From Clostridium sp. CX1 (lineage in GTDB: Bacteria > Bacillota > Clostridia > Clostridiales > Clostridiaceae), in contig NZ_JAODOO010000002.1 of NCBI RefSeq assembly GCF_025398335.1, positions 124,001 through 188,000 of the forward strand: a DNA stretch of 64,000 nucleotides, written 5' to 3'. Shown in pieces: positions 36,559 through 64,000 of the stretch; position 1 is the stretch's first letter, and each line of letters begins with the position of its first letter. Below the pieces are notes generated by a model. That model did no database searches and was not told the origin of the DNA. It was given only the letters and a program-made list of their open reading frames with translations. The position numbers and the translations under genes are program-made.

Positions 36559-36628
36559 ATATTAATCCTCCAATTTTATCAATGTTTCAACAAATAATTG
36601 TATTATATCATATCAATTAATTAATTAC

Positions 36629-36659
36629 AAAGAGGGATTATAGTGCTTAATCTCTCTTT
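36629..36659. terminator. terminator at left end of mobile block
   Basis: AAAGAGGGATTA and TAATCTCTCTTT pair with one G-T and a loop of about 7 nt, 20 bp after the rep-like stop. T-rich DNA follows on the plus strand. Confidence 0.65.
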
Positions 36660-36678
36660 ACTTTTTAATTCTTATCTC

Positions 36679-37485
36679 TTACCCTTCCATATATAATGAT
36701 TTACCTTCTATTCCATAGAGCAGCCGCATTTCTAATTCTTTAAAATCATAATTTCTTTGGGTAAAATTATTGAAGGTACTAACAGCATGAGCCTTTATAT
36801 TTTTTAAATTCAGTCTGTTTTCATCTTTAAAAACAGACTTATAATTTTCTAAAACCCATTTGGTATATGCAAAAACATTCTTTACACTCTTTTGAGATAC
36901 TGCATATCCATGTCCTTTAATAATTTTCACTATATCATTACAAGCTAATTTTAAAAGTTCTTTAGACTCCTCTTTATCGAATCCTGTAGTATTAGATATC
37001 ACTTCAATATCCTTTGATGCATCTGGTGCTTTTTCGGTTTCCTCTTTAACTATATTAGGATTTTCAATTGCCGCTGGTGTTAAGTCCTCTTTTTCATCAA
37101 CAATAACTTCATCAATATCTATTTGACCTTCTATTGGAGCATTTCCGTCACTATCTATATGTTTAGTCTTACTTTCTTCTACTGGAGCAGTAATCTCTGC
37201 TTTATCTTCAACCAAATCAGTTTTCACACTATATACATACTCATATCTTCCTTTGTTTCTTGTCTTAGATTCCACAAGTACACATTTGTCCTTAAGCTCT
37301 TTCCATACTCTCCTAAAGGCAGTTTCACCATAGCCACTAATGGATTTTATGTAGTCTCTCTTTATAGAAAAATTCTTTATAGTTGATAAGTATTGTAACT
37401 TAGCATAAAGTCCTATTGCTTCCAAAGATAGATTTGCATCAAAAATTATTGAATTATTTATTTTGGTAAATCCTTTAGTAGCCAT
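36679..37485 (-). CDS. replication-initiator-like protein (winged HTH, DnaD-like tail)
   Basis: A 268-residue protein. Residues 1-75 form a winged-helix domain starting GFTKINNSIIFDANLSLEAIGLYAKL, as in Gram-positive plasmid and phage replication proteins. An acidic linker fills about 85-165. The C-terminus has a DnaD-like region ending FNNFTQRNYDFKELEMRLL, the common tail of such replisome organizers. AAAGGAG precedes the ATG. Its promoter has a consensus TTGACA inside an inverted repeat, so expression is probably repressed. It may start replication of an episomal form; the exact Rep class is not certain. Confidence 0.7.
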   Translation of the reverse strand: MATKGFTKINNSIIFDANLSLEAIGLYAKLQYLSTIKNFSIKRDYIKSISGYGETAFRRVWKELKDKCVLVESKTRNKGRYEYVYSVKTDLVEDKAEITAPVEESKTKHIDSDGNAPIEGQIDIDEVIVDEKEDLTPAAIENPNIVKEETEKAPDASKDIEVISNTTGFDKEESKELLKLACNDIVKIIKGHGYAVSQKSVKNVFAYTKWVLENYKSVFKDENRLNLKNIKAHAVSTFNNFTQRNYDFKELEMRLLYGIEGKSLYMEG

Positions 37486-37543
37486 GTTATAATCTCCTTT
37501 CGATATATTGTTCCTGTTGTTTTATTGTTTTGTTGTTAAATAT

Positions 37544-37579
37544 AGTATATCATTTATGTTGTTATGTTGTCAACAACAT
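37544..37579 (-). promoter_or_regulatory. rep promoter with inverted-repeat operator
   Basis: On the minus strand TTGACA (37573-37568) and TATACT (37549-37544) are 18 bp apart. The -35 lies in ATGTTGT-CA-ACAACAT (37564-37579). The 13-mer CAACATAACAACA (37569-37557) ends 7 bp before the -10, exactly as in the RHH promoter. Confidence 0.78.
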
Positions 37580-37589
37580 AAAGTTTAAA

Positions 37590-37631
37590 AATAACAATAG
37601 CCAAGGTTTATTTACCTTGGCTATTGTTATT
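37590..37631. terminator. perfect hairpin at end of RHH gene
   Basis: 18-bp perfect arms (37590-37607 and 37614-37631) with a 6-nt loop. The RHH stop codon is in the loop, so the 5' arm encodes its last residues. It separates the RHH gene and the rep promoter. Confidence 0.85.
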
Positions 37632-37763
37632 ACGTTTTTCAAGCACCAGTTTTAATCCCTCTTCAATCAAATCGTTTATTTTACATTCTTCATTTAGTGC
37701 TAATAACTTTATGGACTTTATTAATTTTTCATCAATAGTTGTGTTTATAGCTTTTCTCGCCAT
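37608..37763 (-). CDS. ribbon-helix-helix repressor, 51 residues
   Basis: A short gene with a strong CGGAGG site before its ATG. The product starts MARKAINTTIDEKLIKSIK and continues with an alpha-helical LNEECKINDLIEEGLKLVL, the strand-helix-helix pattern of Arc/CopG proteins. Such proteins often control plasmid copy number or toxin-antitoxin operons. It lies just upstream of rep, and both promoters share one operator sequence, so it probably represses itself and rep. Confidence 0.8.
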   Translation of the reverse strand: MARKAINTTIDEKLIKSIKLLALNEECKINDLIEEGLKLVLEKRNNNSQGK

Positions 37764-37793
37764 ATCTATACCTCCGTTCAACTTTATACCTTT

Positions 37794-37824
37794 ATTATAT
37801 CATATTTGTTGTTATGTTGATATA
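37794..37824 (-). promoter_or_regulatory. RHH promoter with shared operator
   Basis: On the minus strand TATAAT lies at 37799-37794. The 13-mer CAACATAACAACA (37819-37807) ends 7 bp before it. The -35 is poor (ATATCA at the aligned place). Confidence 0.7.
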
Positions 37825-37845
37825 CGTTTTTGTTGTTATCTATAA

Positions 37846-38145
37846 AATTATTTTTGTCAAAACAACCGTTTATTATTTTATAATATATCTTTTAGGTATA
37901 GATAGTTGTTGTATAAGTGTATTCTTAATATAAAGTCTTATTTAACTATAGTCTTATTATATATGTGTGTTTCCCACCTGTGGTGTTATCAGCATATGAA
38001 ACTCCTAAAAAAGCTGTTAACCACATGATTGAATTGAACATGTAGTTTTGGCTATGTGCATTTTACAGCCGACATAAGTACAAGAGGTTTTACCCTATAG
38101 TAATACCATAAAGCAAAACCTCTTGTACTTATGCCGGAATATAAA
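37846..38145. other. non-coding stretch, candidate replication or transfer origin
   Basis: About 300 bp without a gene between the RHH promoter and the small gene at 38146. It contains the 19-bp inverted repeat at 38073-38133 and is otherwise AT-rich. Its place between rep/RHH and the relaxase gene fits an ori or oriT, but neither is proven. Confidence 0.45.
38073..38133. repeat. 19-bp perfect inverted repeat
   Basis: CATAAGTACAAGAGGTTTT (38073-38091) and its exact complement (38115-38133) flank a 23-nt loop. No T run follows, so a terminator is less likely than a structured origin site. It lies downstream of the relaxase gene. Confidence 0.75.
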
Positions 38146-38256
38146 CTATTTTATTATGCCATGTCTTACTGCCCACCAGTATCCCTCTGAAAGGTCATCT
38201 TGTCTTTCCTTACTAGCATATTTCCATGCCACAAATAAAAATAAAAAATACATCAT
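38146..38256 (-). CDS. small putative membrane peptide, 36 residues
   Basis: An AAAGGAG site 8 bp before ATG-ATG opens a 36-codon frame. The product starts MMYFLFLFVAWKY (hydrophobic) and ends GYWWAVRHGIIK. Both start codons lie in the 3' arm of a 15-bp hairpin whose loop holds the ribosome binding site, so translation may be controlled or the frame may be a by-product of the terminator. Not recognised. Confidence 0.42.
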   Translation of the reverse strand: MMYFLFLFVAWKYASKERQDDLSEGYWWAVRHGIIK

Positions 38257-38292
38257 ACTACCAGCTCCTTTATTATAAGTATGATGTATTTT
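38245..38292 (-). terminator. hairpin after relaxase gene with RBS in loop
   Basis: AAAATACATCATACT (minus-strand 38292-38278) pairs with AGTATGATGTATTTT (38259-38245), loop of 18 nt. TTTTTTATTTTTATTT follows, as in an intrinsic terminator for the relaxase transcript. Confidence 0.7.
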
Positions 38293-38317
38293 CCATATTT
38301 TTATAACTCTACTTTCT

Positions 38318-39337
38318 TTATTTTTTTATTTCTTTCTCTGGACCTTTATCATTTCCGCTGACCTGATTTTTAGCGTAGTTTAATATCTGATTAATTGAGC
38401 TTTCTGGAACCTTATAAAGCTTACTCATGGCTTTTATAGTTTCTCTTAGCACTTCCCTCTGACTTTGCAGCTCCTTTATTTGTTTATATAAAACTCTATT
38501 GTCTTTTAATGCTTCTTTATCCTTTCTGTCCGACACTTCCATAATATCTTTGTAAAAGTGAAGGGTCTTTTGAAGTTCGATGACTTTCTTCTCTATTAAG
38601 TCATTGTTTAAAGCTTTTGCACACACACTTTTTATATCTTTAGTATCTATTTTTTTATTCATTAATGTATAATACTGGCTTATCTTTACATGAGTTGCTT
38701 TACTGCCTTTTATTCCTCTAATTAATCCTAAATCTTTCATACTGCTTCCGTAACTGTCCTGTAACGCACTCATTCTTTGTTTATTACCAAAGAATCTTTT
38801 ATTAGCTAACTTATAACACTTATGCTTTTCGTCATAAACTCTAGGACAAAATAATATATTTAAGTGTAATGTTCTTTCGTCCTCGTGGCTGGATATATAG
38901 AGAATTCTATCTTCTCCAAATGTCCTATTCAGCCACTGGACGTTTTTATTTATCCACCTTTCTTTTTCTCCCGCTGGCATCTTCTCAAAGTATTCATGAC
39001 TTGCTGTTAAAAGCATAGAAGTAGCTAATACACTATTCTTACGGACCTTAACATTTTTAAGGTATTCCTGCAGGTCTTTAGTTATATTACTGCTACCTTT
39101 AATGATTTTGTTAAACTTTGCCCTTTTAGGATCTGCATTTAATACTTCTTCTTTTCTTTCCATGTGCTTTTCGAAAGTTTCTACCCCTGCCAAATTATGA
39201 TATCTAGCTCCAACTCTAAAAATACAGTAATGCTTATTTCCTCTTACATGAGCCGCAGTTATATCTTTTTGTTTTAACTGCTCCGGTTTCTTGTCTAATA
39301 GCTTTACATCATCTTCAAGAAAGTCAAATTTAATCAT
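38318..39337 (-). CDS. mob: divergent Pre/Mob (MobV-like) relaxase
   Basis: A 339-residue protein with the features of plasmid recombination/mobilization relaxases. The N-terminal segment HYCIFRVGARYHNLAGV and the central SSHEDERTLHLNILF at about 149-163 match the family's HxDExxPHxH metal motif, but the Pro is Leu and the last His is Asn (HEDERTLHLN, 151-160). SYGSSMKDLGLIRG follows as in MobV proteins. The C-terminal 100 residues are coiled-coil-like. Relaxases nick oriT and lead the strand into a recipient. It overlaps the preceding coiled-coil gene (ATGA) and belongs with the coupling ATPase. Confidence 0.75.
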   Translation of the reverse strand: MIKFDFLEDDVKLLDKKPEQLKQKDITAAHVRGNKHYCIFRVGARYHNLAGVETFEKHMERKEEVLNADPKRAKFNKIIKGSSNITKDLQEYLKNVKVRKNSVLATSMLLTASHEYFEKMPAGEKERWINKNVQWLNRTFGEDRILYISSHEDERTLHLNILFCPRVYDEKHKCYKLANKRFFGNKQRMSALQDSYGSSMKDLGLIRGIKGSKATHVKISQYYTLMNKKIDTKDIKSVCAKALNNDLIEKKVIELQKTLHFYKDIMEVSDRKDKEALKDNRVLYKQIKELQSQREVLRETIKAMSKLYKVPESSINQILNYAKNQVSGNDKGPEKEIKK

Positions 39338-39636
39338 TCTTCATCACCTACAGCAGCATCTAAAAGCTTATCTAAATCTTCGTACTTACTTAAAGTATTT
39401 AAGGTTTCTTCCTCCTTATGCTTTAGTAATTCCTGTAGCTGAGCCTTTAATATGTCATTCTCTTGCACTACCTTTATATAAGCCTTCTGTAATTCCTCAT
39501 AATTCTCTTTTAGAGTAAAATATTTAATTTTGAGTTCCTGCATCTTTTGTTCCTGTTCTTTTTTAGCTTCCAGCTCTATATCCTTAACCATGATTTTAAA
39601 TTCATCTGTAGATATTTTTACTTTCTTATCAAACAT
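39334..39636 (-). CDS. coiled-coil protein, probable relaxosome accessory
   Basis: A 100-residue, nearly all-helical charged protein with heptad-like repeats from about 15 to 85 (EAKKEQEQKMQELKIK). Good GGAGGGG site. Its stop overlaps the relaxase start. Not recognised; its position suggests it aids the relaxase. Confidence 0.6.
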   Translation of the reverse strand: MFDKKVKISTDEFKIMVKDIELEAKKEQEQKMQELKIKYFTLKENYEELQKAYIKVVQENDILKAQLQELLKHKEEETLNTLSKYEDLDKLLDAAVGDEE

Positions 39637-39795
39637 AATTTCCCCTCCGAATGAATTATTGAATTTGAAACTTTCACTTTCTCATCCTTTGTGGGACAAC
39701 CTTTGAAAAAGGTCTAGTAAGTTAGTCTTTTAAAAAAGAGAATAAAGTTAGAATAAAAATTAAAAGTTTGACTAAGCTAACTTTCATGAAACTTT

Positions 39796-41238
39796 TCAAA
39801 ACCTTTCTGGAAATTCTTCTGGGTAGACATACGTTGAGTAACTTTCATTTTCATAATAGATATTCAGATAATCTTTTACTGGTGCTAAATTATGAGCTAT
39901 AATCAGCATCTCATTTATTTTAAGCTCTCTAATATTGCTTTCAGCGAACATTTTTTCTTTAGTTGCGGAATAGCTTATACTTGTATTATTCCCGCTTCTT
40001 GATGTGCTTTTCTTTTTAACATCTACATAGCCGCACAGTTCACTGGCATAGCTTAATGTAGATGTCTCTGATATGGATGGGAGAATACACTTTGTCTTTA
40101 GGTTATTTAGAATTGTTAATCCGTTATCTCTTCCGTATAGCTGGAATAGCTGGCTAATACTTTGTAAGCATACTAGGAAGCTTAATTCCCTGCTTCTACT
40201 TACCGCCACAGTATTATGAAAATTTAATATCTGTCCAGTAGCAGTGGCAAATTCATCAAACATAAAGTACACTGGTAAACTTTCTTCTGAATAGTTCTCT
40301 ATAAGATGGGTTATCATTTGACTGTAAAATATACTTAGAAATGGACTTAAGTAATTCGCTTTCTGGTCATTATAGCTTACATATAAAGCTATAGGTTTTT
40401 CTCTTAACTCTTCTGGGGTAAATTCTGTTTCACTGGTTAACTTCTCAATATTTTTATCAAGGAATATCTGCAGATTAGTAGCTAAAGTAACTTTAATACT
40501 AGATGCAGTTTTGGGACTTTCTAGCGATGTTTTAAAGATATTATATTGTTCCTTTATATCTTCTTTACAATTTGAAAATAACAGGTCAATTTCTTCTGTA
40601 GAGTGGTTTATTATGAGTCTTAAAGCCTCGGTTATAGTGTTCATAGGTCTGCCTTTTCCCTTGCAGTAAAGCATACTAGCAACTAATAAAGGTAATGCCA
40701 TGTTTATCCATGTACTGTCATTTCCTCCGCTCTTTCCGCTGCTTAATTCTATTGCCTTAACCCCATTTATTAATAAGGTTTGTGATAGTTCTCTCACTTC
40801 TGTTAAATCTTTAGCCTGTTCTAAAGGATTGTACTTCCATGAGTGCATATGATCAAGCGGACTAAATAGTATAGGCTCTCTTCCTATGCTTCTTTGATAA
40901 TTGGCAGTATCTCTGTAAAGTTCTCCTTTAGCATCTAAAATAATTATGCTGCCTTTTATGCAGTCACTTAATAAATTAGGATAAAATAAGCTAGTAGTTT
41001 TCCTACTTCCAGTAGCTCCAACCACTAAAATATTTTCAAAACACTTCTTCTCTGATAGCTGCATATTCTTACTTATTCTTATTCCGTCTGCTCCTTTAAT
41101 ATCTTTTAACTTGTTGCTCTTACCTACTACAGGCTTTTTGGTGATTATTGAATGGTTATCTAAATAAACATTTAAAAAAGTTGCTCCTACGCCTAAAGCC
41201 CCGATCACCTTTCCATAAAATAAAGTTGAACCTAGCAT
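39796..41238 (-). CDS. VirD4/TraG-family coupling ATPase
   Basis: A 480-residue type IV coupling protein. A short N-terminal hydrophobic segment (residues 3-25) is followed by the nucleotide site GATGSRKT at 74-81, where the usual Gly before Lys is Arg, then LDAKGELY, the Walker B FMFDEFAT near 325, and LQSISQLFQLYG. Coupling proteins bring relaxosomes to a type IV secretion channel. It is short for the family, and no channel genes are present in the window. AAAGGAG precedes the ATG. Downstream of it is the relaxase operon. Confidence 0.85.
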   Translation of the reverse strand: MLGSTLFYGKVIGALGVGATFLNVYLDNHSIITKKPVVGKSNKLKDIKGADGIRISKNMQLSEKKCFENILVVGATGSRKTTSLFYPNLLSDCIKGSIIILDAKGELYRDTANYQRSIGREPILFSPLDHMHSWKYNPLEQAKDLTEVRELSQTLLINGVKAIELSSGKSGGNDSTWINMALPLLVASMLYCKGKGRPMNTITEALRLIINHSTEEIDLLFSNCKEDIKEQYNIFKTSLESPKTASSIKVTLATNLQIFLDKNIEKLTSETEFTPEELREKPIALYVSYNDQKANYLSPFLSIFYSQMITHLIENYSEESLPVYFMFDEFATATGQILNFHNTVAVSRSRELSFLVCLQSISQLFQLYGRDNGLTILNNLKTKCILPSISETSTLSYASELCGYVDVKKKSTSRSGNNTSISYSATKEKMFAESNIRELKINEMLIIAHNLAPVKDYLNIYYENESYSTYVYPEEFPERF

Positions 41239-41258
41239 ATTTACACGCTCCTTTTAAA

Positions 41259-41423
41259 TTAGTTAAATTCTCTATTATTCTTCTTTTGTTTCTTCTCTAA
41301 ATATCTGGAGTAAAACTCTATTGCATCTTTGATGTAATCTGACTTTTCTTCTTTTTCCATAACCAGTAAATAAAGCTTCATATCTCTAGTTGTTTTCTTA
41401 AAACTTACATCAATTCGTGGCAC
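41259..41423 (-). CDS. small ribbon-helix-helix protein, 54 residues
   Basis: The frame runs further upstream, but GGGAGGGAG fits a GTG start at 41423. The product MPRIDVSFKKTTRDMKLYLL then EKSDYIKDAIEFYSRYLEK has the strand-helix-helix layout of RHH DNA-binding proteins. It ends 20 bp before the coupling gene, so it may be an oriT-binding accessory protein or a regulator. Confidence 0.65.
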   Translation of the reverse strand: MPRIDVSFKKTTRDMKLYLLVMEKEEKSDYIKDAIEFYSRYLEKKQKKNNREFN

Positions 41424-41530
41424 TTTCTCCCTCCCCTTTCCTGTACTTCTAATAACAATATATGTATACATTACAGAAAAGTTGCATAATTTTAAAAACA
41501 TTTTTGTAATTTTACAAATAAAATTTATAA

Positions 41531-41560
41531 AAATAAAAAGCACCTATTTCTCAGGCACTT
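41531..41560 (-). terminator. terminator overlapping XRE stop
   Basis: On the minus strand AAGTGCCT and AGGTGCTT pair with two G-U pairs; the stop codon is in the loop and TTTTTATTTTT follows. Confidence 0.65.
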
Positions 41561-41753
41561 TATAAATAACTTCTTCTATTCTCTTTCCTGTTTTTAAACA
41601 TATTTGTAATAGATTTTCCCCACTTGGTTGAACTCTATTTTTCTCATATCTGTTATAAAGCCATCTGTCTATTTCTAAAAAATCCGCGAACTCTTGTTGA
41701 GTTTTATATCTAAGTTCTAATCTAATATCTAAAAGTCTGTTTTGAATAGCCAT
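41544..41753 (-). CDS. XRE-family regulator
   Basis: A 69-residue Cro/cI-type HTH protein: NRLLDIRLEL, then TQQEFADFLEIDRWLYNRYEKNR as the HTH, then LLQICLKTGKRIEEV. AGAGGTGATG supports ATG at 41753 rather than the upstream in-frame start. It opens the plasmid-like block and may control the mobilization genes. Confidence 0.82.
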   Translation of the reverse strand: MAIQNRLLDIRLELRYKTQQEFADFLEIDRWLYNRYEKNRVQPSGENLLQICLKTGKRIEEVIYKVPEK

Positions 41754-41813
41754 ACACATCACCTCTAAATAATATATTCAAGAAATAAGTGTTTTTTCCT
41801 TTTATATGTAAAT

Positions 41814-41845
41814 AAAAAAACCCCCCGAGCCTAAGCCCGAGGTTT
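41814..41845 (-). terminator. terminator after amidase (end of phage late operon)
   Basis: On the minus strand CCTCGGGC and GCTCGGGG form an 8-bp GC-rich stem with a 4-nt loop, followed by seven T residues. It separates the phage late genes and the XRE-mobilization block. Confidence 0.8.
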
Positions 41846-41848
41846 AAA

Positions 41849-42634
41849 TTATTTTCCTATAAATTGCAAAACTGCCTTTATTGTCTCATATCTGTCAGTA
41901 CCTTTTATAATTTTCTTAGTGTAGCTAGTAAACTCCCCGCTCCCTACTGCATACACATTTTCTACTACACTATAGTCAAATGGTGTTGAATTTGATATTA
42001 TAGGGCACTGTAAATAGTCTGCCAAATACTCTGCAGCTCTCTTATCAACTTCATTGCTATAAACTACTATATTTTTCACTTTTTCATTTTCCTCCTTTAA
42101 AACATTAGTATTTTGTCCTGTTAGTCCCTTAACTATAGCATTAGCTATATCTTCCGCATTATATCTCGCCATATCCTCATTAGAGTCTACGAAACAACAC
42201 TCTACCAACATGGCAGGCATATTAGTATGTCTAATAACTGCTAACTTTGAGCCATCCTTAACACCTCTATTTCTATATCCTAAAGAACATATATTGTTAA
42301 GAATAGTTTTTACCTCCGGTAATTCTTTAGCGTTCATGGTGTAAATTTCGGTGCCAAATCCTCCAGGAGTGGCATTAAAATGAATAGATACAAATATACC
42401 TGCTCCACTATTATTTGCTGTGTTATACCTATAGTATAGAGAATCATTTATACTTGAAGCCTTATTACAAGTACAGTTAACTACTTTATATCCTAATGCC
42501 TTTAGTTTAGCAATAACCCTGTTGCCTACTTCTCTAGTAAGTAGACTTTCCTCTTTAATTGCACTAGTTCCATAGTCAGATCCTGAAAGCGTATGTCCCA
42601 TGTCTATTGCAATAACAGTATTTAAACTTAGCAT
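41849..42634 (-). CDS. N-acetylmuramoyl-L-alanine amidase endolysin
   Basis: A 261-residue lytic enzyme. The Amidase_3 domain (residues about 6-170) has the zinc ligands in DMGHTL, an early Glu, SIHFNA and the catalytic VECCF. The C-terminal 80 residues resemble a cell-wall-binding repeat 2 unit (VYSNEVDKRAAEYLADYL). Next to a holin, so it is the phage endolysin. GGGAGGAG precedes the ATG and contains the holin stop codon. Confidence 0.9.
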   Translation of the reverse strand: MLSLNTVIAIDMGHTLSGSDYGTSAIKEESLLTREVGNRVIAKLKALGYKVVNCTCNKASSINDSLYYRYNTANNSGAGIFVSIHFNATPGGFGTEIYTMNAKELPEVKTILNNICSLGYRNRGVKDGSKLAVIRHTNMPAMLVECCFVDSNEDMARYNAEDIANAIVKGLTGQNTNVLKEENEKVKNIVVYSNEVDKRAAEYLADYLQCPIISNSTPFDYSVVENVYAVGSGEFTSYTKKIIKGTDRYETIKAVLQFIGK

Positions 42635-42637
42635 TTT

Positions 42638-43054
42638 CTACTCCTCCCTTATCTCTTTCTTATTACCTTCTTTAAGTTGCAGCAATACTTCTTTGAGTTT
42701 TTCTGGCACCGGTAATCCTAATGCAGCACTATTTTCTATTATAGATATACCCTCGTTAGCTATGTAAAAATATGCTACTAGAGTCCTAAACACCCATGTA
42801 CCGGTATTAGAAAGCCTGTCTAAACTTACAGCAACTATAAGAACTACAAATATTACTGCCTTTCTAGCCAAGCCTTTAAAACCTACATCACTTGACAGCT
42901 CCTTATTGATTGCACCTCTTAGCAGTCCAGTACAATAATCTAACACCATAAATACTATAAGTATCTGCAAGGCTGTGTCCCATGCTCCAAATAACCATGT
43001 AAGATAAGTTCCCGTTCCAGCAATAATTGAATTAAATACTTCTTTTTTATCCAT
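42638..43054 (-). CDS. phage holin (TcdE/BlyA family)
   Basis: A 138-residue holin with three hydrophobic segments at about 25-48, 65-85 and 90-105 and the family core FMVLDYCTGLLRGAINKELSS. It permeabilises the membrane so the amidase can reach the wall. Its stop is 4 bp before the amidase start. Confidence 0.9.
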   Translation of the reverse strand: MDKKEVFNSIIAGTGTYLTWLFGAWDTALQILIVFMVLDYCTGLLRGAINKELSSDVGFKGLARKAVIFVVLIVAVSLDRLSNTGTWVFRTLVAYFYIANEGISIIENSAALGLPVPEKLKEVLLQLKEGNKKEIREE

Positions 43055-43070: not shown

Positions 43071-43105
43071 AAAAAAATAAAAAGAACCCGGTATGAACCA
43101 AGTCC
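43071..43105 (-). terminator. terminator after phage recombinase
   Basis: On the minus strand GGACTTGG and CCGGGTTC pair with wobble pairs across a 6-nt loop; TTTTTATTTTTTT follows. It starts at the recombinase stop. Confidence 0.68.
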
Positions 43106-44091
43106 TATTGAAACTTTTTATATTCATGCTTTATATTTTCTTCTGAAATTTCACTATACACAAGTGTAGTTTCTGGAGAATCGTGGCCCATCAATTTTTG
43201 TAAAATAACCAGCGGCATCCCTGAGTTTAGCTTATGGGTAGCAAAACTATGACGAAATAGATGTGGATAAATAGATTTATCAAACCCCGCTCTAATTGCT
43301 ATATTATTTATTTCCCGCTCTACGCTTCTACTGCCCATACGTTGATGAGGATATTTACCGGTTACAAACAAGGCTGGACATTCATCTTTTCTTGCAGATA
43401 AATATTTTTGTAACAGAATTTTTGCTTTTATACTAAAATATATTTTTCTCTCCTTATTGCCCTTGCCTATAACATTCAGCGACATTTCATACCAATTTAT
43501 TTTGTCCTTATTTACACCTATAACCTCTGAAAGTCTAGCTCCAGAAGATACTAAAAATTCTATTAAAGCTTTTTCTCTATCTGTTTTACACGCCTGTCTT
43601 AGAAGTTCTATCTCTTCTTCCGTGAGTGCGTGTCTTAGCCTCTTAGGTTCTTTGGTATGTTTAATTTTTTTAGTAGGATCCTTTGGTATATATTCTTCAT
43701 TACTTAACCAACCAAAGAAGCTTTTTAGAGTAGAGATATGTGTATTGGTAGTTGTACCTTTTAGGTTCTTGCATCTTACTGCTAAATACATCCTGATGTC
43801 CATGGTTGTTACAGTTGCAATAGGTTTTCTGATGAAATTAGCAAAGGACATAAGATTTAACTCATAGCTATCTAAAGTCTTTCGACTTAATCCATCAAGC
43901 TTTTTTACTGCCAAGTATATCTGTATTTTTTCTTCAATATCACTTGCTACTAAAGCAGTTTCCTTTGAAAGAACATCATAACCATAGAAAGCCTCTTCGA
44001 GTATTCTTCTTAGCTTCAATTGGTCCAGTTCCGGGAATTCTAATGAAATCTTACCAATACATTTTATGATAAGTTCATCATTGCAATTCAT
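43105..44091 (-). CDS. tyrosine recombinase inside phage late region
   Basis: A 328-residue integrase-family protein. A long N-terminal extension (about 1-60) precedes the SAM-like domain. The catalytic residues are Arg in SSGARLSEVIG, HLFRHSFATH with His and Arg, MGHDSPETT and the Tyr in TLVYSEI. AAGGAGG before the ATG. It lies between XkdX and the holin, an unusual place for an integrase; it may integrate the element or resolve its dimers. Confidence 0.85.
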   Translation of the reverse strand: MNCNDELIIKCIGKISLEFPELDQLKLRRILEEAFYGYDVLSKETALVASDIEEKIQIYLAVKKLDGLSRKTLDSYELNLMSFANFIRKPIATVTTMDIRMYLAVRCKNLKGTTTNTHISTLKSFFGWLSNEEYIPKDPTKKIKHTKEPKRLRHALTEEEIELLRQACKTDREKALIEFLVSSGARLSEVIGVNKDKINWYEMSLNVIGKGNKERKIYFSIKAKILLQKYLSARKDECPALFVTGKYPHQRMGSRSVEREINNIAIRAGFDKSIYPHLFRHSFATHKLNSGMPLVILQKLMGHDSPETTLVYSEISEENIKHEYKKFQ

Positions 44092-44780: not shown

Positions 44781-46028
44781 TTATTCAAAAGCATACCATC
44801 TTAAACCATCAGGTCTTGTGCCCATTGGGAAATTAGCAAAATTTATAGAAAATCCATTAGATAGTATACTCATTACATTTTTTAAACTATTCCAAGTTGT
44901 TCCTCCAGTATTACCAAGTCCGTTGTATGAATAGTTGGTCATTGCTATATTAAGCCCAACGTCTTTAATATATAATCCAACTGTATTCCCATTTACATAA
45001 GGTGAGCTATTATCCAATAGATATAAAATTATAAAACTTGGTGAAAAACTTAAATTATTTACTGTTACAATTGTACCACTATAGTTAGGTCCAGGAAACG
45101 AACCACTAGCCCACCTTTTTCCTGTATTAATATTTGCAACTTTTGATACTAAGTTAGCTAAAGTATCAGTTTCAACTGAACTCTGCCCTTTATTAGTCAA
45201 ATTTGTAGCTAGTGTGTTTTTATTATTTTGAATGCAATTTTTCAACATTTCAAAAGTATCGCTACTTAATGCAGGAGAGCCAATAACGTTAGCGATACCT
45301 GTTTTTCCGTTATTGGCATATTGAAAAAGATTACTTAAAATAGTTTGAACGTCTGAACCAGTTATGCCAGTTACATTTGCACTTATATTACTTGCTTTGT
45401 GTGCTCCCGACGTAGTATCAGCCAAATGTCTATTAATCGTATTATTTGAATCTTCTAATGTAGTTCCATCATTTAACTTTATATCTTCTGCTTTTAGTAC
45501 TACATCTCCAGTTTTCCCATTTACCTTCGTAACCGGTACCTTTATATTGCTTATTTGATTTTGTAAGACTTGTATATCTTTTTTAGTGGCTAGTATAACA
45601 GTCGGGTCTACTTTTAAAGTAACACTTGCAGTATTACTTACCTCTAAAATCATCCTTATGATTAAGTCCTTAGAGCTGCCTTCACTTGCTATAGGTTTAT
45701 ATGTTTCTGGATATTTGCCTATAACTACTAAATTACCCTCATCATCAAAGATACCAGCTTCACGTATCATAAAGCCGCCTTGATCGGCTGGAATTACTGT
45801 CTCCATTACTATCCAATTAGGGTTGTTTTCATCTACTATTACTGAATTAATGTTTCCTTCCCATACTTTGTTTTTTAATTGAGTTTGTTCCTCTGTTGGA
45901 TTATAGTAAGTTCCTCCACCATCTCCAACTTGGAATTTTACTAAGTTTAGCTTTATTCCTAATGCACTTACATTAGCTATTTTAGATTTACCTAGTTTAG
46001 TCAATATCGTATAAAATTGCTCTGCCAT
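44781..46028 (-). CDS. phage tail fibre
   Basis: A 415-residue fibre. The N-terminal domain (about 1-145) is the P2-gpH-type tail-fibre module (AEQFYTILTKLGKSKIANV, IREAGIFDDEGNLV). The middle has KVNGKTGDVVLKAEDI collagen-lectin-like repeats, and the C-terminal 100 residues form a beta-rich tip. The tip should bind the host surface. Its start overlaps the gpI stop (TAATG). Confidence 0.85.
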   Translation of the reverse strand: MAEQFYTILTKLGKSKIANVSALGIKLNLVKFQVGDGGGTYYNPTEEQTQLKNKVWEGNINSVIVDENNPNWIVMETVIPADQGGFMIREAGIFDDEGNLVVIGKYPETYKPIASEGSSKDLIIRMILEVSNTASVTLKVDPTVILATKKDIQVLQNQISNIKVPVTKVNGKTGDVVLKAEDIKLNDGTTLEDSNNTINRHLADTTSGAHKASNISANVTGITGSDVQTILSNLFQYANNGKTGIANVIGSPALSSDTFEMLKNCIQNNKNTLATNLTNKGQSSVETDTLANLVSKVANINTGKRWASGSFPGPNYSGTIVTVNNLSFSPSFIILYLLDNSSPYVNGNTVGLYIKDVGLNIAMTNYSYNGLGNTGGTTWNSLKNVMSILSNGFSINFANFPMGTRPDGLRWYAFE

Positions 46029-48099: not shown

Positions 48100-48116
48100 A
48101 CATACACCTTCCTTTC

Positions 48117-48515: not shown

Positions 48516-48542
48516 ATTAATCACTTCCAATCGATTAAGATG

Positions 48543-57577: not shown

Positions 57578-57600
57578 ATTTAAACTCCACCTTTCTAAAA

Positions 57601-59064
57601 TTATTGCCCATTATTTTTAACGACTGTTTTATAATCTACGATAGTAACACCATAGTCTATATAAATATCCCATAGATATCCTAGTTGACCAGCAGGTGGC
57701 TGTTTCATAACAATTGTCGGCATATCCAATCCATTTAAGTAGTCAACTTGAATAGGACTTCTTAGTTGGTCAGCAGTCATATACCATTCCTTTGCTCCAT
57801 TAGCTGTTGCATCATCTAGTTCAGCATCGCTAATAATTTTAAAGCTATTGTAGAACGGGTTAGGTATATTAGGATTTGTTTGAGCAGGGTCGATAGATGC
57901 ACCTATTAATTGTCCTGACTTTGTTTCTAAGGCAGTCGGAACCAGCATAAATTTAGCAGGAATATTTAATTTCACTTGACCACCTGCAGCCTTCTGATTT
58001 CTCATCTTCATTCTCATGTCAGATAACGCATCTACACTTGGATTGGATCCTATAGATGATATATTTCCATGGTCAGCTGAGAATAGCTGTTTTCCGTCCC
58101 AAATTGCTGGATTCTTAGCAAGTGTTTGATATACTAATCTATTAATTCCTAGTCTTGCAGATTGTGCATAAAGTGCTGGGATAGTTGATATAAAGTCTAC
58201 ATCATCATTTATAAATGCTTCACGAGTCATACTGAATTGACGACCAAAAGTAAGTAATTGACGAACTGGTCCTTCTTCAGCATTAATGGAATCATGTTTT
58301 AATTCACCATTTTGAGAAACTAATAAAAGTTCACCGGCTGTTCCAGTTTGATAAGTCTTAGTTGGTCTAAAATCTTTTAACGTTCCTCTTCTGGTCCACA
58401 GTTGATAAGTTGTTTCAGCCTCAGTATAAGCTTTTTCAAAAACAGAGCGTGCAGTTTGGTCCATAATGCCAGTAAATAAGCTAGTTGGATTTAAGTACTG
58501 ACGTAACATCTCATCTTCATTTAAACGATAAGCATTTTGCACACCCTCAAGTCTTAGTGTTTCTTTTGCTAATTCTTTTAAAGATAAACCTCGAAGTTCC
58601 TTTGCACCATCAGCTGGTTTTTCAACATTTAATCCAACACGGAGTGCAAGTCCATCCACTGCAGCAGCACGGAACTTATCTCCCTCATCTTGAATAACTC
58701 CTACGCTTGACGGCTTCTTCGTTTTTAATTGCTTTTGAAGTATGAATGCACGCACTTCATCCACTGTATTTCCTGCTTTAATATACTCCTGTGGCTCTAA
58801 CTCAAAGCTTCTGCAAAGATCTGTAATATCCATAGTACGCTGTCTTTCAGCTTCTCTTGCTTGTCTAGCTATTTCTTCATTGTCCGGAACCTGAATTATT
58901 CCAGCAGCCGCTATATTTGTATTATTACCCATTGCCCTCAATGAATCAATGTTGCTCTGTAAGCCATCAAACTCTCTTTGCTCCTCTGTAGTTAAATCAC
59001 GGTGATTTGCTTTAGCCTTATCTAAGATTTCCTGCTGTCTTGCTAACATTTGTTCTAAAGTCAT
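57601..59064 (-). CDS. major capsid protein with N-terminal scaffold-like extension
   Basis: A 487-residue protein. The first ~200 residues are helical (MLARQQEILDKAKANHRDLT) and probably act as a scaffold removed by the adjacent protease. The HK97-like shell domain follows (about 210-487) with QFSMTREAFINDD and the C-terminal YIDYGVTIVDYKTVV. GGAGGG site. Confidence 0.88.
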   Translation of the reverse strand: MTLEQMLARQQEILDKAKANHRDLTTEEQREFDGLQSNIDSLRAMGNNTNIAAAGIIQVPDNEEIARQAREAERQRTMDITDLCRSFELEPQEYIKAGNTVDEVRAFILQKQLKTKKPSSVGVIQDEGDKFRAAAVDGLALRVGLNVEKPADGAKELRGLSLKELAKETLRLEGVQNAYRLNEDEMLRQYLNPTSLFTGIMDQTARSVFEKAYTEAETTYQLWTRRGTLKDFRPTKTYQTGTAGELLLVSQNGELKHDSINAEEGPVRQLLTFGRQFSMTREAFINDDVDFISTIPALYAQSARLGINRLVYQTLAKNPAIWDGKQLFSADHGNISSIGSNPSVDALSDMRMKMRNQKAAGGQVKLNIPAKFMLVPTALETKSGQLIGASIDPAQTNPNIPNPFYNSFKIISDAELDDATANGAKEWYMTADQLRSPIQVDYLNGLDMPTIVMKQPPAGQLGYLWDIYIDYGVTIVDYKTVVKNNGQ

Positions 59065-59077
59065 TTATAATTCCCTC

Positions 59078-59677
59078 CTATAAATAGTTTTTATTTAATT
59101 GAATTTGCTTATAATAAAGTTCCAATGGTGCAGACTTTAAAAGAGTTTTTTGAAATTCATTCATTTCCCTACCTACCCCTACTGTTGCATCGGCAGGAAC
59201 AGAAACAATAGATATTTCTACTGGAAGCCATTTAAGTGCAATACTACATGGCCCTGTAAATTTTCCATTAGCTGATACTTTCCCAGCAGTAACTTCTTCC
59301 CAGCTATCAACTCGATAGCCAACACTAACACCTTTTAACGTACCACTTCTTACCTTCTGATAAATCTTTTCACTTTCATCATCTTCATCAAAGGTAACTA
59401 ATGCTTTTCCCCTGTTATCTTCAATCCAAGCTTTATCGATTCTTCCAATAACCTTGTCTCTGGAATGATTAAAAAGAAGACATCCAATTTCACTTAGTCT
59501 TGATAAATCGCAGGCTCCATCTTGATGGCTTAAAATTTCTGGCCCAAACCATCTATCATAGGGTTCTTCACTTGAGAAGCTTAATTCAACTTGCCGTGAA
59601 CCTTCCTCAACTTCCCTAAAATTAATTCTTGAATATCGCTGGCTAAATTGAGAGTTATTCTCCTTACTATTGCTCAT
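59078..59677 (-). CDS. HK97-family prohead protease
   Basis: A 199-residue S78/U35-type protease. LLFNHSRDKVIGRIDKAWIED carries the catalytic His, and ISIVSVPADATVGVGR the Ser/Asp region. It matures the capsid. Overlaps the portal gene by 11 bp. Confidence 0.87.
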   Translation of the reverse strand: MSNSKENNSQFSQRYSRINFREVEEGSRQVELSFSSEEPYDRWFGPEILSHQDGACDLSRLSEIGCLLFNHSRDKVIGRIDKAWIEDNRGKALVTFDEDDESEKIYQKVRSGTLKGVSVGYRVDSWEEVTAGKVSANGKFTGPCSIALKWLPVEISIVSVPADATVGVGREMNEFQKTLLKSAPLELYYKQIQLNKNYL

Positions 59678-61094
59678 CTTTTATCACCCCCTTCTCCTTC
59701 ATATATTGAATTTCTCTCGCTCTTTGGTCTACGATTTCTTTCCAATCATGGCCATAGGTAGCTGAAAGTTCTGCAAGGGTAGTTTGATTTGTTTCTAATG
59801 CAATTCTATTTGCATTAGCCTCTTTTAGAGGGTCAATCCATTTTTGCCCTGGCGGAGTCCACTCATGCATCATATATTCTTTTTTCTTACCCCAAAAATC
59901 CTTAATTGCAATGGCTCCACTTAAAACGGCAGATATTAAAAAAGTTTCATAGACCTCTGTAAGAAAATGATCAATAAGATATTGCTGTTCAATTTGGTAG
60001 GTTTTTTCATCTTCCAGCAAACCCTGTCGTGCACTACTGTAGTTAACTTGTGACATATCCCTTGAAACGGATTCATAAGAAATCCCTTGGCCACTGCCCG
60101 TCAATCTTTGCTGCAATCTTACAAAGTCAGCTGCACTAGCTCCTTGTGCCGGAGGCTGAACAACAGATACATCCTCCCCAGGACTAAGCTCCATAATCAT
60201 TCCTGGGCTTAACGTTTTTCCTTTATATTGATTAGTATTCTGCTTTCCTCCTGTCCTTCCAATTCCGCCAGTGTCAGGATTCATACGTTTGATAAAAACG
60301 GATAAGCAAGCAGAAACTCTCTCTTTTACACTAACAGCCTCCATATAAGAGTTAACATCTTTAATTCTTGTTATAGTTGGAGACATTTCTGACATTTCAC
60401 GGACTTGGGAAGGTCTCTTTTTAAGCCATAAAAAAATGACGTCATTTGCTTCAATTCGTTCACTTTTTCCCAAATAGAAGCCATTGACATCATATTTTTT
60501 AAAGTAGTATGCAATTGGTCGATTAAATTCATTGTATTCAATACCATTTAAAACCCTGATATTATTTCTACTTATTTGCATTGTATCTAGGTCATCAACT
60601 TCCCTAACCTGTAAAGTAAAGGGTACGACACCCCCTTGAGTATATCTTTTAATAAAAAAAATGCCACCATCAACCTTTTTCCTTCTTAATGCCATTCGAC
60701 ACATTTCATTGAAGCTTTGCTGATAGGTAACATCGCAATTTCTCGGCTTACACCATTCTCTCCACAGCTTCTCAATTTCCGAATTAAGATTTTCATCATC
60801 TGTTTTCGCTTGAAGTTTAAATCCGGTTCCAACCACATTTCTCTCAAAAGCTCCAATGATACTTTCACTCATATCTGAGTTTCTTTCTAAATCACGTGCT
60901 CTGGCACGGATTGTATCACGATAGGCACTATCCGTTTGCTCAGCAGATGCATTTACCGCACGCCATCCTGCATTTAAACGGTCTTCAGTACCAGCATCAT
61001 AACTACGTAATTCCTGATATGCTTTTCTCCAAGCCTCACGCCTATATGCTGCACTTGGAGATATAAATGCTACTGCTTTATCTAGCCAGCTCAC
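59667..61094 (-). CDS. lambda-family portal protein
   Basis: A 475-residue gpB-type portal. The start is placed at GTG 61094 (MSWLDKAVAFISPSAAYRREAW), which AGGAGGTGAT fits, three codons inside the longer frame. Markers: NVVGTGFKLQA, RRKKVDGGIFF and SSARQGLLEDE. It forms the DNA gate at the head vertex. Confidence 0.88.
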   Translation of the reverse strand: MSWLDKAVAFISPSAAYRREAWRKAYQELRSYDAGTEDRLNAGWRAVNASAEQTDSAYRDTIRARARDLERNSDMSESIIGAFERNVVGTGFKLQAKTDDENLNSEIEKLWREWCKPRNCDVTYQQSFNEMCRMALRRKKVDGGIFFIKRYTQGGVVPFTLQVREVDDLDTMQISRNNIRVLNGIEYNEFNRPIAYYFKKYDVNGFYLGKSERIEANDVIFLWLKKRPSQVREMSEMSPTITRIKDVNSYMEAVSVKERVSACLSVFIKRMNPDTGGIGRTGGKQNTNQYKGKTLSPGMIMELSPGEDVSVVQPPAQGASAADFVRLQQRLTGSGQGISYESVSRDMSQVNYSSARQGLLEDEKTYQIEQQYLIDHFLTEVYETFLISAVLSGAIAIKDFWGKKKEYMMHEWTPPGQKWIDPLKEANANRIALETNQTTLAELSATYGHDWKEIVDQRAREIQYMKEKGVIKDEQ

Positions 61095-61099
61095 TCCTA

Positions 61100-61318
61100 T
61101 CACCTCCTGTCAAAAACACCTACATATGTATTACCTAGTAAGTTATCCTGACTATTTTCATAGTTCATTTGAGCCTGCAACTCTTTTTGTCTTGCATAGA
61201 GCAAAGATAAGTCCGCTCTTTTCAACCTTCTTGACCCAATCTGATACTCTTGACCACCAATTTCAATAGCAGTTATAGCCTCATTAATCTGTTTTAACTG
61301 TTCTTCTAAAGATAACAT
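61100..61318 (-). CDS. gpW-like head-tail joining protein
   Basis: A 72-residue lambda gpW-like protein: LEEQLKQINEAITAIEIGGQ and GSRRLKRADLSLL. It joins portal and connector. GGAGGTGTG site; follows terL by 12 bp. Confidence 0.87.
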   Translation of the reverse strand: MLSLEEQLKQINEAITAIEIGGQEYQIGSRRLKRADLSLLYARQKELQAQMNYENSQDNLLGNTYVGVFDRR

Positions 61319-61330
61319 AATTCACACCTC

Positions 61331-63181
61331 CTATAACCATTTATTATTTTTTAACCATGAATCGTTAAAGTCCATGGATTGTGTATTTACATTTTGAGGT
61401 TCTTCCTGTTGTTGTTCCTCTTCTTGCATTAAATGAATACTTCGGACATTCAGAATATCAGCAGCAGCCAATGCATAAACCTCAGTATCTAAATAGTGGT
61501 TATCCGCATGACTTGTTTTTGGTACCCACACTTGATTAATTCGACCACCACTAGTTTTAACATTAACCTTATGCTCCGCTGTTACCTGTTCTGCATACTC
61601 TCGGTCACACCCTTCATAAACCATCCAAGAGCCATTACCATTTGGTTTTCTCATCCTTGAAGCTATCATATCTTTATACTTTCCGCCGTCTACTAATAGC
61701 AGTCGCATGCCATGAGCTTTGGATGTAGCTTTATTAATTGTGCTTATCTTAAAGTGTGAATATCCGCTAGCAGTACCTTTAGCAGGAATTGCCCATTCAC
61801 TATTTTTAGCACAGAAATCATAAACTGCATCTGTCTGGTCTCCTGAGTCAACTGCACAAAGGTTAACCATAAAGGCTTCACCATTTCTTTTTTTGTATTC
61901 TGAATTCATAGCCATTTCAATTTCATTAAAGCTTAACGCTTGGCCATGAGCAATATTTTGACTTGTAAGATACGGCCCCCATGCACGAATGGTCCAATAT
62001 AAGCTAGACTCCTGAACATCAACTCCCCCAGTAAGCATAACTGCCCAATCTGGCACCTCAAATTGTTTATAACTAGTCTGCCTTTCTAGTACCATGTCTG
62101 CATTTGTTTTTAATTTTGTATCTTCCCACGGTTCGGCAAGCCATGAGTTAACGAAGTTTTGAAATTCTTCTGGGTCATCTTTAGTAGTTAGGAATTCTTT
62201 TGCAATCTCTCCAAATCTTACAAAGGGAGAATATAAAGTATTCATCCAGTAAGCTACTTTTCTAGGATATTGTGTCCTTTGCTTAAATACTTCCCACCTA
62301 CCATAACGCAACATCTGTGGTTTATGTTGGTCTGTAATTATACAACCACATTCTTGGCAAACATAAGTAGCTAATTCAGCCCTTTCTGCATAACTCATTC
62401 CCTCTTTTTTTGGCCATTTAATTTGTTCAAGCTTAAGTTCAATATATTCCCCACAATGCGGGCAAGGAACTTTATAATGCTTTTCAATATCAGCACTTTC
62501 TTTAGCTTTCCAAATATGTCCTGTTTTAAGAGTTGGTGTAGATGTCATGAATATCTTTCTGTTATTTGAAAAGGTCTTTGTACGCTCTTTAGCCAATTTA
62601 ATTGGATCTGCTTCTTTTTTACTTGCTCCTGGATACTTGTCAACTTCATCTAAAAGTAAAAACCTAACAGGTTTACTAGCTAAAGAGGATGGTGAATTAG
62701 CACCACTTAAGGTTAAATACAATCCTTCAAATTGTAATTCTAATTTACTGGACTGAAATGGTTTGAATTTTGTTCTTAATTCTCTTGAATTCATTAGCAT
62801 TGGCTGCAATCGATTTTCGGATATACTTTCTGCAAGCTTATCAGACGGATAAACAATCATTGTTGGTGAAGGATCTTGCATAACTATATACCCAACCATA
62901 TTTTGGAGTGCTTCTGTTCCTCCTACCTGTGTTGGTTTAACAAATATAATTTCTTCTGTTTCTGCATTGTTAAACTCATTCATTATATCAACTAAATAGG
63001 GGGTAACAGAATTCTTCCATTTACCAGGTATAGCAGAGGATTTATTATCTAAAATACGATACTTTTCAGACCATTCACTAACTGCTAAGTCCTCAGGTGG
63101 CCTTAATTGTCTTAATGGATTCTTAATGTAATCTGGTAAATTACTTTGCTTTCTTCTTGGCACTATAAACACCGTCCACAC
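61331..63181 (-). CDS. terminase large subunit (GpA family)
   Basis: A 616-residue packaging motor. N-terminal ATPase with VKPTQVGGTE as Walker A near 85 and LLLDEVDKY as Walker B; a zinc-binding CPHCGEY...CQECGC; and the C-terminal nuclease with CAVDSGDQTDAVYDFC. GpA-family terminases cut at cos sites. It overlaps terS by 41 bp; the real start may be the GTG at 63163. Confidence 0.9.
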   Translation of the reverse strand: MWTVFIVPRRKQSNLPDYIKNPLRQLRPPEDLAVSEWSEKYRILDNKSSAIPGKWKNSVTPYLVDIMNEFNNAETEEIIFVKPTQVGGTEALQNMVGYIVMQDPSPTMIVYPSDKLAESISENRLQPMLMNSRELRTKFKPFQSSKLELQFEGLYLTLSGANSPSSLASKPVRFLLLDEVDKYPGASKKEADPIKLAKERTKTFSNNRKIFMTSTPTLKTGHIWKAKESADIEKHYKVPCPHCGEYIELKLEQIKWPKKEGMSYAERAELATYVCQECGCIITDQHKPQMLRYGRWEVFKQRTQYPRKVAYWMNTLYSPFVRFGEIAKEFLTTKDDPEEFQNFVNSWLAEPWEDTKLKTNADMVLERQTSYKQFEVPDWAVMLTGGVDVQESSLYWTIRAWGPYLTSQNIAHGQALSFNEIEMAMNSEYKKRNGEAFMVNLCAVDSGDQTDAVYDFCAKNSEWAIPAKGTASGYSHFKISTINKATSKAHGMRLLLVDGGKYKDMIASRMRKPNGNGSWMVYEGCDREYAEQVTAEHKVNVKTSGGRINQVWVPKTSHADNHYLDTEVYALAAADILNVRSIHLMQEEEQQQEEPQNVNTQSMDFNDSWLKNNKWL

Positions 63182-63659
63182 TCATTTGATAGAGTGCATC
63201 ATTAATAATTTCTGTTAGGCTTTTTTCAATACGCCTTGCCTCAATTGGTTCTACATAAGGGCCAACTTCCGCAGATAGTTTTCTCGAAAGCGACATAGCT
63301 GATTTTTTAAAAACAATAAAAAACCTAGCCAACTCTGCTTCAACTACTTCCTTTTGGATATACTTCCCGTTTGCAATATCTGTTTTCAGCCTAGTCAACT
63401 CAGACTGTGCTTCTTTAAATGCAACCTCTGCTTCTAACTTCTTCTGTTGAAGGTTTACGGATTTACTAACTTCGGAATCAGCATTGTATATTTCACCACG
63501 CCACTTCAACACATGTTTTAAATCCCACCAACCTCGGCTATGTTGTGTTAACCCTTGTCTTTTCCAGTCAGTAAGCGTTCTATCACTAACATCTAATATT
63601 TCGCAAAGAACTTTAGTTGATACAACTATTTTGTTATCGGCCTGCTTAATTCCATCCAT
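63141..63659 (-). CDS. terminase small subunit
   Basis: A 172-residue Nu1-type DNA-binding subunit. An HTH at about 10-45 (LCEILDVSDRTLTDWKRQG) is followed by a long coiled coil (QQKKLEAEVAFKEAQSELTRL). GGGGGGTGAG supports ATG at 63659 over the upstream in-frame start. It selects the packaging site. Confidence 0.85.
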   Translation of the reverse strand: MDGIKQADNKIVVSTKVLCEILDVSDRTLTDWKRQGLTQHSRGWWDLKHVLKWRGEIYNADSEVSKSVNLQQKKLEAEVAFKEAQSELTRLKTDIANGKYIQKEVVEAELARFFIVFKKSAMSLSRKLSAEVGPYVEPIEARRIEKSLTEIINDALYQMSVDGVYSAKKKAK

Positions 63660-63721
63660 AAACTCACCCCCCAATTCCGAAGTTCCGAAGTAAAATTTTT
63701 TGTTTTTATGGAGCAAGATTT

Positions 63722-63767
63722 CGGGGCTCGCTAGCCCCGCACCTCCCGTACCCCCTTAGAAGGACCC
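63722..63767. other. GC-rich palindromic region, candidate cos site
   Basis: CGGGGCT (63722-63728) and AGCCCCG (63733-63739) form a hairpin; GC-rich CACCTCCCGTACCCCC follows. GC-rich DNA directly upstream of terS is the usual place of cos in lambda-like packaging systems. Inferred, not proven. Confidence 0.45.
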
Positions 63768-63789
63768 ATGACTTAATAACTTTGCCTTA

Positions 63790-63804
63790 ATACCATAGTG
63801 GTAT
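63790..63804. repeat. short palindrome
   Basis: ATACCA-TAG-TGGTAT between the candidate cos and the upstream hairpins. Possibly a protein-binding site. Confidence 0.35.
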
Positions 63805-63834
63805 ACTTACTATTATTACTTGTGCAAATAAAAT

Positions 63835-63880
63835 AAGCACCTGGAGTTAACCAAGTGCTTTGCTGTTGCCACGCAACAGC
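63835..63880 (-). terminator. tandem hairpins upstream of terS
   Basis: Two hairpins: AAGCAC.TGG/CCA.GTGCTT (63835-63860), followed on the minus strand by TTATTTTATTT, and GCTGTTG/CAACAGC (63862-63880). They likely end the transcript of the gene to the right. Confidence 0.7.
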
Positions 63881-63939
63881 TTATTAATCTTACATAGTAT
63901 CATTATATCAATTTATATACCCTCATTACTGACAACTTT

Positions 63940-63999
63940 TTAAGAAATCTTTTTTATTCTTAATCCTCTTTGATATGCAAACAATTCTCTTGCTTGCTT
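63940..63999 (-). CDS. C-terminal end of an unseen gene
   Basis: The minus-strand frame is open from the right edge to a TAA at 63942-63940 and encodes KQARELFAYQRGLRIKKIS. It is followed by the tandem hairpins. Too short to name; the start lies outside the window. Confidence 0.35.
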   Translation of the reverse strand, partial: KQARELFAYQRGLRIKKIS

Positions 64000-64000
64000 T

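Follow-up and report, generated by a model that had tools for sequence, protein, structure and literature searches.

A MobV relaxase and a VirD4-type coupling ATPase carried by a temperate myophage integrated into miaB of Clostridium sp. CX1

Organization of the locus

The miaB gene of Clostridium sp. CX1 is split by an integrated element in which genes of plasmid mobilization families, encoding a MobV-family relaxase and a VirD4-type coupling ATPase, lie next to the structural genes of a myophage. The window analysed here is a stretch of 64,000 nucleotides of contig NZ_JAODOO010000002.1 (C12:124001-188000, genome G000); positions past it are given in C12 coordinates. All named window genes are on the minus strand. 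Going rightward from miaB, they encode a rep-like protein, an RHH-like protein, the relaxase, a protein of 100 amino acids (aa), the ATPase, a second RHH-like protein and an XRE regulator, followed by the endolysin, holin, tyrosine recombinase, tail fibre, baseplate, tape measure, sheath, head, portal and terminase genes. The first-pass annotation had placed relaxase, ATPase, RHH and XRE genes beside, and in the same direction as, the lysis, tail, head and packaging genes, and the Pfam, NCBIfam and PHROGs matches agree with that arrangement. The attachment sites and the mobilization cassette comprise the following features:

36486-36492, no strand: left copy of the attachment core, GGCAACC, within the 5' portion of miaB (reads at both junctions; alignment break; read-through in congeners)
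36493-36558, minus: element-supplied miaB start codon and first codons (the native N-terminus remains at the right junction)
36679-37485, minus: weakly rep-like protein, 268 aa (phrog_4707, replication initiation protein, 2.8e-7)
37608-37781, minus: small RHH-like protein (PF20605, 8e-4, below its cut-off)
38069-38137, no strand: near-perfect hairpin with 34-nt arms, candidate origin of transfer (oriT) (fold score against shuffles)
38318-39337, minus: MobV-family relaxase, 339 aa (HxDExxxHxN motif at residue 151)
39334-39636, minus: small protein, probably a coiled coil, between ATPase and relaxase (list of open reading frames, ORFs)
39796-41238, minus: VirD4-type coupling ATPase, 480 aa (PF02534, 4.8e-54, 184.4 bits against a cut-off of 20.1)
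41259-41543, minus: RHH-like protein (no Pfam family; phrog_18533, unknown function, 1.3e-22)
41544-41762, minus: XRE regulator (HTH_3, 2.9e-8)
41823-41842, minus: terminator-like hairpin with a T run, between endolysin and cassette (terminator scan)
C12:203670-203676 (L008:3671-3677): right attachment core GGCAACC, common to both junctions

The relaxase matches the Pfam family Mob_Pre (1.7e-29) and the NCBIfam MobV model NF041497 (121.6 bits, cut-off 100). HxDExxxH is the defining metal and catalytic motif of MobV relaxases, and it is intact in all four relaxase copies compared. The coupling ATPase has a Walker B motif and is related to the CD1115 VirD4-like subfamily without being a member of it (203.3 bits against the NCBIfam cut-off of 250). 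Support for the smaller genes is uneven. Of the two RHH genes named in the first-pass annotation, the one at 41259-41543 is backed by its PHROG match and by no Pfam family, and the match of the other to PF20605 remains below the cut-off. The rep-like protein has, besides its PHROG match, no Pfam family at the cut-off and no NCBIfam match, and the records with a match to it, one from a plasmid and one from a phage, cover it only in part. Because the label depends on these weak matches, we rejected the identification of 36679-37485 as a well-supported plasmid rep gene. AACAACA-like repeats at 37486-37620 and 37782-37860 flank the small RHH-like gene and are possible operators.

The hairpin at 38069-38137 folds far better than expected (z = -9.43 against 200 shuffles, none of which was as good), has no T run and is absent from the terminator list; we take it as a candidate oriT. 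In MobV plasmids the oriT is situated upstream of the relaxase gene, and the candidate differs from that arrangement in lying downstream. The terminator-like site at 41823-41842 divides the cassette from the late genes. Terminator-like sites in the region number 9 against 2.4 expected; promoter-like sites show no excess (25 against 32.1 expected).

Integration into miaB

We searched for miaB in seven genomes of the genus, one of them the source genome, which leaves six congeners for comparison. In all six, the protein is uninterrupted across the place at which miaB of the source genome is divided. The DNA alignment of the left flank ends at window position 36492 in five of them and is slightly longer in L046. 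At the right end of the element, ∼93-98 bp match the start of miaB in DNA alignments with four of the six; the match to L042 is weak and covers 34 bp only, and L043 has none at that place. The aminotransferase gene comes next in all four loci that are long enough to reveal the order (L043 to L046). Extension to the right end and a search for attachment sites, as proposed in the first-pass annotation, located the core GGCAACC at both junctions, with a core-to-core distance of 43,184 bases (43.2 kb). Since host miaB continues to the left of the core and its native start lies to the right, the element has given miaB a new start codon and N-terminus. Integration at 36486-36558 swaps the first codons of miaB for element-encoded ones and leaves a 451-aa frame open.

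The genes that had been assigned to 36560..64000 are present there, but the element extends ∼15.7 kb beyond the window, up to a large serine integrase gene at C12:201946-203622. The early region past the window edge contains PcfJ/PcfK-like, DUF3102 and replication initiation protein genes, and the right end of the element contains a repressor-like gene, a Uma2-family gene and the large serine recombinase gene, followed by the host aminotransferase gene. Within the early region, L007:12977-15966 holds the DUF3102 gene, a PcfJ-like gene and a weak PcfK-like gene; the Pcf names derive from a conjugative plasmid. No tRNA was found in the window by ARAGORN, so that the integration site is not a tRNA, and Rfam gave zero matches in the window.

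The junctions thus enclose the mobilization genes, the phage genes and the large serine integrase. With both junctions in the divided miaB situated beyond the mobilization genes and the phage genes, we have little doubt that the cassette belongs to one integrated phage element.

Phage genes

PHROGs matches confirm the two lysis genes, the tail fibre, baseplate, tape measure and sheath genes, and those for capsid, protease, portal and the two terminase subunits; the myophage structural block looks complete, in keeping with the earlier description:

41849-42634, minus: endolysin, amidase (Pfam and PHROGs)
42638-43054, minus: holin (Pfam and PHROGs)
43105-44091, minus: tyrosine recombinase (Pfam and PHROGs)
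44781-52873, minus: tail fibre, baseplate and tape measure genes (PHROGs)
53861-55321, minus: tail sheath (phrog_23, 2.7e-82)
57601-63716, minus: capsid, protease, portal, large and small terminase (PHROGs)

The tail sheath gene indicates a contractile tail and hence a myophage; the large terminase belongs to phrog_15. With contractile tail, head and packaging genes, an integrase and attachment sites, the element is a prophage; being integrated, it is not the extrachromosomal replicon that defines a phage-plasmid. The tyrosine recombinase gene sits between the tail genes and the holin although a serine integrase is already present, and a search for inverted repeats around it and the tail fibre gene gave short pairs only. 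The endolysin shares a 97-aa C-terminal stretch (58% identity) with the endolysin at L021:14148-14909, and the catalytic parts of the two do not align.

The relaxase-ATPase pair in other phages

Relatives of both proteins were sought family-wide (206 genomes), and those of the relaxase also order-wide (225) and class-wide (391). At 1e-60, the ATPase has relatives in three other genomes of the family (four of 206 with the window's own), two of which carry the pair in a phage setting.

In C. mobile (G120), the pair is found together with ParA, RHH-like and replication genes on a contig of 51,964 bp, whose two ends are identical over 119 bp and so imply a circle of 51,845 bp (51.8 kb). The contig also has genes for the large terminase, portal, minor and major head proteins, sheath, tape measure, baseplate and endolysin. 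This contig (Clostridium mobile MSJ-11 contig 6; L019, L020, L038) has the appearance of a complete phage-plasmid, circular at 51.8 kb and equipped with mobilization genes. In C. caldaquaticum (G110), tail genes are followed by genes for the endolysin, a ParM-like partition protein, an RHH-like protein, the ATPase and the relaxase, and a 47-bp copy of the 3' end of tRNA-Pro lies 180 bp beyond the relaxase gene. The other 47-bp copy, on contig C45, completes tRNA-Pro and is followed by a tyrosine integrase gene; contigs C45 and C46 probably meet through the prophage. The frame of the ATPase is slightly short at its end here (one TAG). The large terminases of the C. mobile and C. caldaquaticum phages fall into PHROG families other than phrog_15. 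The ATPase-relaxase pair recurs in two phages unrelated to that of the window.

The third genome, C. guangxiense (G160), has an RHH-like gene and the ATPase gene at the end of a 6,357-bp contig, and no relaxase was found in it at 1e-15. A 42-aa stretch of the window's RHH-like protein at 41259-41543 is 69% identical to one in the protein preceding that ATPase. Among 50,697 public phage records, the ATPase was matched in 25 and the relaxase in six, all at less than 60% identity. In IMG/VR, two of 351 stretches with the ATPase pattern proved to be relatives (23-25% identity), as did none of the 26 with the relaxase pattern. Coupling ATPase genes in two metagenome-assembled genomes (L052:9719-11365 and L053:9515-11872, the latter appearing as two ORFs) lie amid chromosomal-looking genes with no relaxase in the ORF lists.

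Source of the cassette

The closest coupling protein is encoded by a plasmid-like circle in another family, a contig of 14,457 bp whose ends are identical over 55 bp (G213). This contig has the genes for an XRE regulator, the ATPase, a 109-aa protein and the relaxase in the window's order, with identities of 49% (ATPase), 39% (relaxase) and 31% (XRE); the small gene is of the same size as that of the window and occupies the same place, and the match between their sequences is not significant. It also encodes a resolvase, a weak RepB_primase-like protein (below the cut-off) and a tyrosine recombinase. The search for the same gene order elsewhere, also proposed in the first-pass annotation, thus recovered the ATPase-relaxase pair in C. 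mobile and C. caldaquaticum and the order XRE-ATPase-small gene-relaxase in G213, but showed the pair to be rare.

In a tree of nine ATPases, with a root placed for drawing only, the window protein pairs with that of G213 (support 95/96) and C. mobile with C. guangxiense (98/97), C. caldaquaticum joining the latter two less firmly (84/87); the relaxase tree (four rows) has no strongly supported branch. This pattern suggests that more than one transfer may have taken place between plasmids and phages. On the best reading, the genes at 36560-41762 are a plasmid mobilization cassette with a plasmid-like source that is carried by temperate phages.

Coupling ATPase genes beside those for mobilization relaxases are found, as in the window, on small mobilizable plasmids such as the 14.4-kb G213 contig, the 11-kb Rossellomorea plasmid p1-UTDF19-31A and the 20-kb Priestia plasmid pFDU301G. 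Unlike the window element, these three have no phage genes in their gene listings, and the two Bacillaceae plasmids, p1-UTDF19-31A and pFDU301G, have a relaxase annotated as MobA/MobL and a distant ATPase. Integrative and mobilizable elements (IMEs) have an integrase, a relaxase and sometimes a coupling protein, with no type IV secretion system (T4SS) of their own. The window element shares the integrase, relaxase and coupling protein but, unlike an IME, also has a block of virion-building genes.

The place between lysis genes and attachment site

Besides the source genome, 10 of the 206 family genomes have relatives of the serine integrase (E-value of 1e-100). In eight of the 10, a short sequence resembling the N-terminus of native miaB adjoins the integrase (E-values from 5.8e-5 to 0.046, individually weak), and in six of the 10 miaB itself is found at a distance of 22 to 45 kb along the contig that carries the integrase. 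None of the 10 is among the three genomes with the relaxase at 1e-15, so the cassette is an accessory of a group of miaB-integrating phages.

Six 20-kb miaB-side stretches from integrase-bearing genomes were compared with reference proteins by BLAST. In two of them (L081 and L084), the interval from the lysis genes to miaB encodes an XRE regulator, an FtsK-like ATPase and a Replic_Relax-like protein; in the remaining four, neither this pair nor VirD4/MobV was matched. A second prophage-like region of the source genome (L010:7245-13698) has a similar series of holin, lysozyme, XRE, FtsK-like ATPase and Replic_Relax-like genes; its Replic_Relax match is below the family cut-off, and a search with the G143 protein did not recover it at 1e-10. 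The Replic_Relax-like protein is present in 20 of the 206 family genomes with an FtsK-like gene adjoining in all 20, and the phage context was read for two. The window's XRE regulator has 58% identity to its positional counterpart in the G143 prophage and to the XRE of L084.

On the strength of the L081, L084 and L010 loci and the 20/20 pairing, one may speculate that temperate phages of clostridia have a dedicated slot, bounded by the lysis genes and the attachment site, for a cassette of an ATPase and a DNA-processing enzyme that transports DNA, with unrelated modules (VirD4 and MobV, or FtsK-like and Replic_Relax) swapped in and out and with spread both by virions and from cell to cell, through a membrane channel, as a regular strategy. 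We regard so broad a generalization as doubtful.

Discussion

Phages with genes for DNA processing and transfer have been described before. In the Bacillus jumbo phage 0305phi8-36, an operon that starts with a DNA relaxase gene and continues with genes for translocase and anchor proteins lies in a non-essential island, and phage growth reportedly showed no detectable defect once that island was deleted (PMC4113786). This relaxase-translocase operon is a published precedent. Like that phage, the window element combines relaxase and translocase genes with a phage genome; unlike that large phage, in which a deletion has been studied, it is a 43-kb integrated prophage with MobV and VirD4-type proteins of plasmid-like source. 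A relaxase or oriT has been noted in 30 P1-derived plasmids and two P1-like phage-plasmids (PMC10879196), which likewise mix phage and mobilization functions. In the P1 group, mobilization genes are mostly in elements that have lost phage functions, whereas the window element is integrated and its structural block looks complete. According to PMC10210947, phage-plasmids abound in other clostridia; related work includes PMC12977533, PMC11389934 and an entry in the reference list of PMC7232213. In the part of the literature covered, judged by titles, abstracts and passages, we recognised no paper describing a MobV-VirD4 pair in a clostridial phage.

The arrangement described above can be accommodated as follows. 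A 43.2-kb temperate myophage integrates into miaB by means of its large serine integrase and carries as cargo, between the lysis genes and the attachment site, the XRE and RHH proteins, the VirD4-type ATPase, the small protein, the MobV relaxase and the candidate oriT hairpin. After excision, the relaxase would nick the phage circle at an oriT and the coupling ATPase would dock the circle on the T4SS of a helper element; conjugation would then be open to the phage genome in addition to spread in virions. The first-pass annotation had proposed spread both as virions and by mobilization, and the anatomy of the element fits that proposal. Whether the cassette mobilizes the phage, or did so until recently, is in our estimate evenly balanced.

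Several observations weigh against such a function. The Walker A motif of the window's ATPase has another residue where all nine relatives compared have glycine; in the C. caldaquaticum copy it is Walker B that deviates. The oriT is a candidate only, and no counterpart of the hairpin was found in the scanned regions of four relatives. A search of the draft host genome for the VirB4-type family PF12846, the only T4SS family searched, gave a single match, below the cut-off; in a control search, PF12846 was above its cut-off in only three of 14 named genomes. The relaxase is rare: it has relatives in two other genomes of the family (three of 206 with the window's own, at 1e-15), its profile finds four of 225 genomes order-wide at 1e-30, G213 being the fourth, and class-wide, at 1e-40, the window's own copy is the only one in 391 genomes.

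The Walker motif departures, the unconserved hairpin and the absence of a helper T4SS above the PF12846 cut-off in the source genome would also be expected of decaying cargo, that is, a cassette captured from a mobilizable plasmid by recombination and no longer working in the window phage. This explanation is possible, if somewhat unlikely: the relaxase and ATPase frames are open and of full length in the window and in C. mobile, the relaxase motif has been retained in every copy compared, and the pair has been kept in three unrelated phages at 36-48% identity, which neutral decay does not favour.

A distinctly less probable alternative is that the pair has another role in the phage: the relaxase may replicate or resolve the circle, or the pair may act in moving DNA at the membrane or in hindering competing conjugative plasmids. 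The FtsK-like and Replic_Relax-like proteins that fill the post-lysis place in L081, L084 and L010 suggest that an ATPase together with a DNA-processing protein may be what is selected, and the reported dispensability of the 0305phi8-36 island for growth (PMC4113786) is consistent with such a role. Nevertheless, the enzymes of the window are of plasmid mobilization families and their closest relative is plasmid-like, and a Replic_Relax function in these loci is putative, with the L010 copy a sub-threshold match.

That the locus holds two adjoining elements, a prophage and an integrated mobilizable plasmid that border on each other near 41,800, is very improbable: the cassette is set apart by its terminator-like site and by a GC content (30.9%, against 35.7% for the structural genes and 31.3% for the host flank) lower than that of the structural genes, but nothing was found to support a boundary at that place, the miaB gene that is intact in all six congeners is split outside the two blocks, the same pair is found inside the C. 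caldaquaticum prophage and the C. mobile phage-plasmid, the cassette (36560-41762) has no integrase of its own among its ORFs and Pfam matches, and the XRE gene adjoining the endolysin gene is shared with the G143 prophage.

If the cassette does work in mobilization, a single element would have two exits from the cell, one lytic and one conjugative. Phage genomes could then enter cells that lack the receptor, and plasmid mobilization genes would gain a virion route. With the C. mobile phage-plasmid and the C. caldaquaticum prophage at hand, the question can be tested in more than one element.

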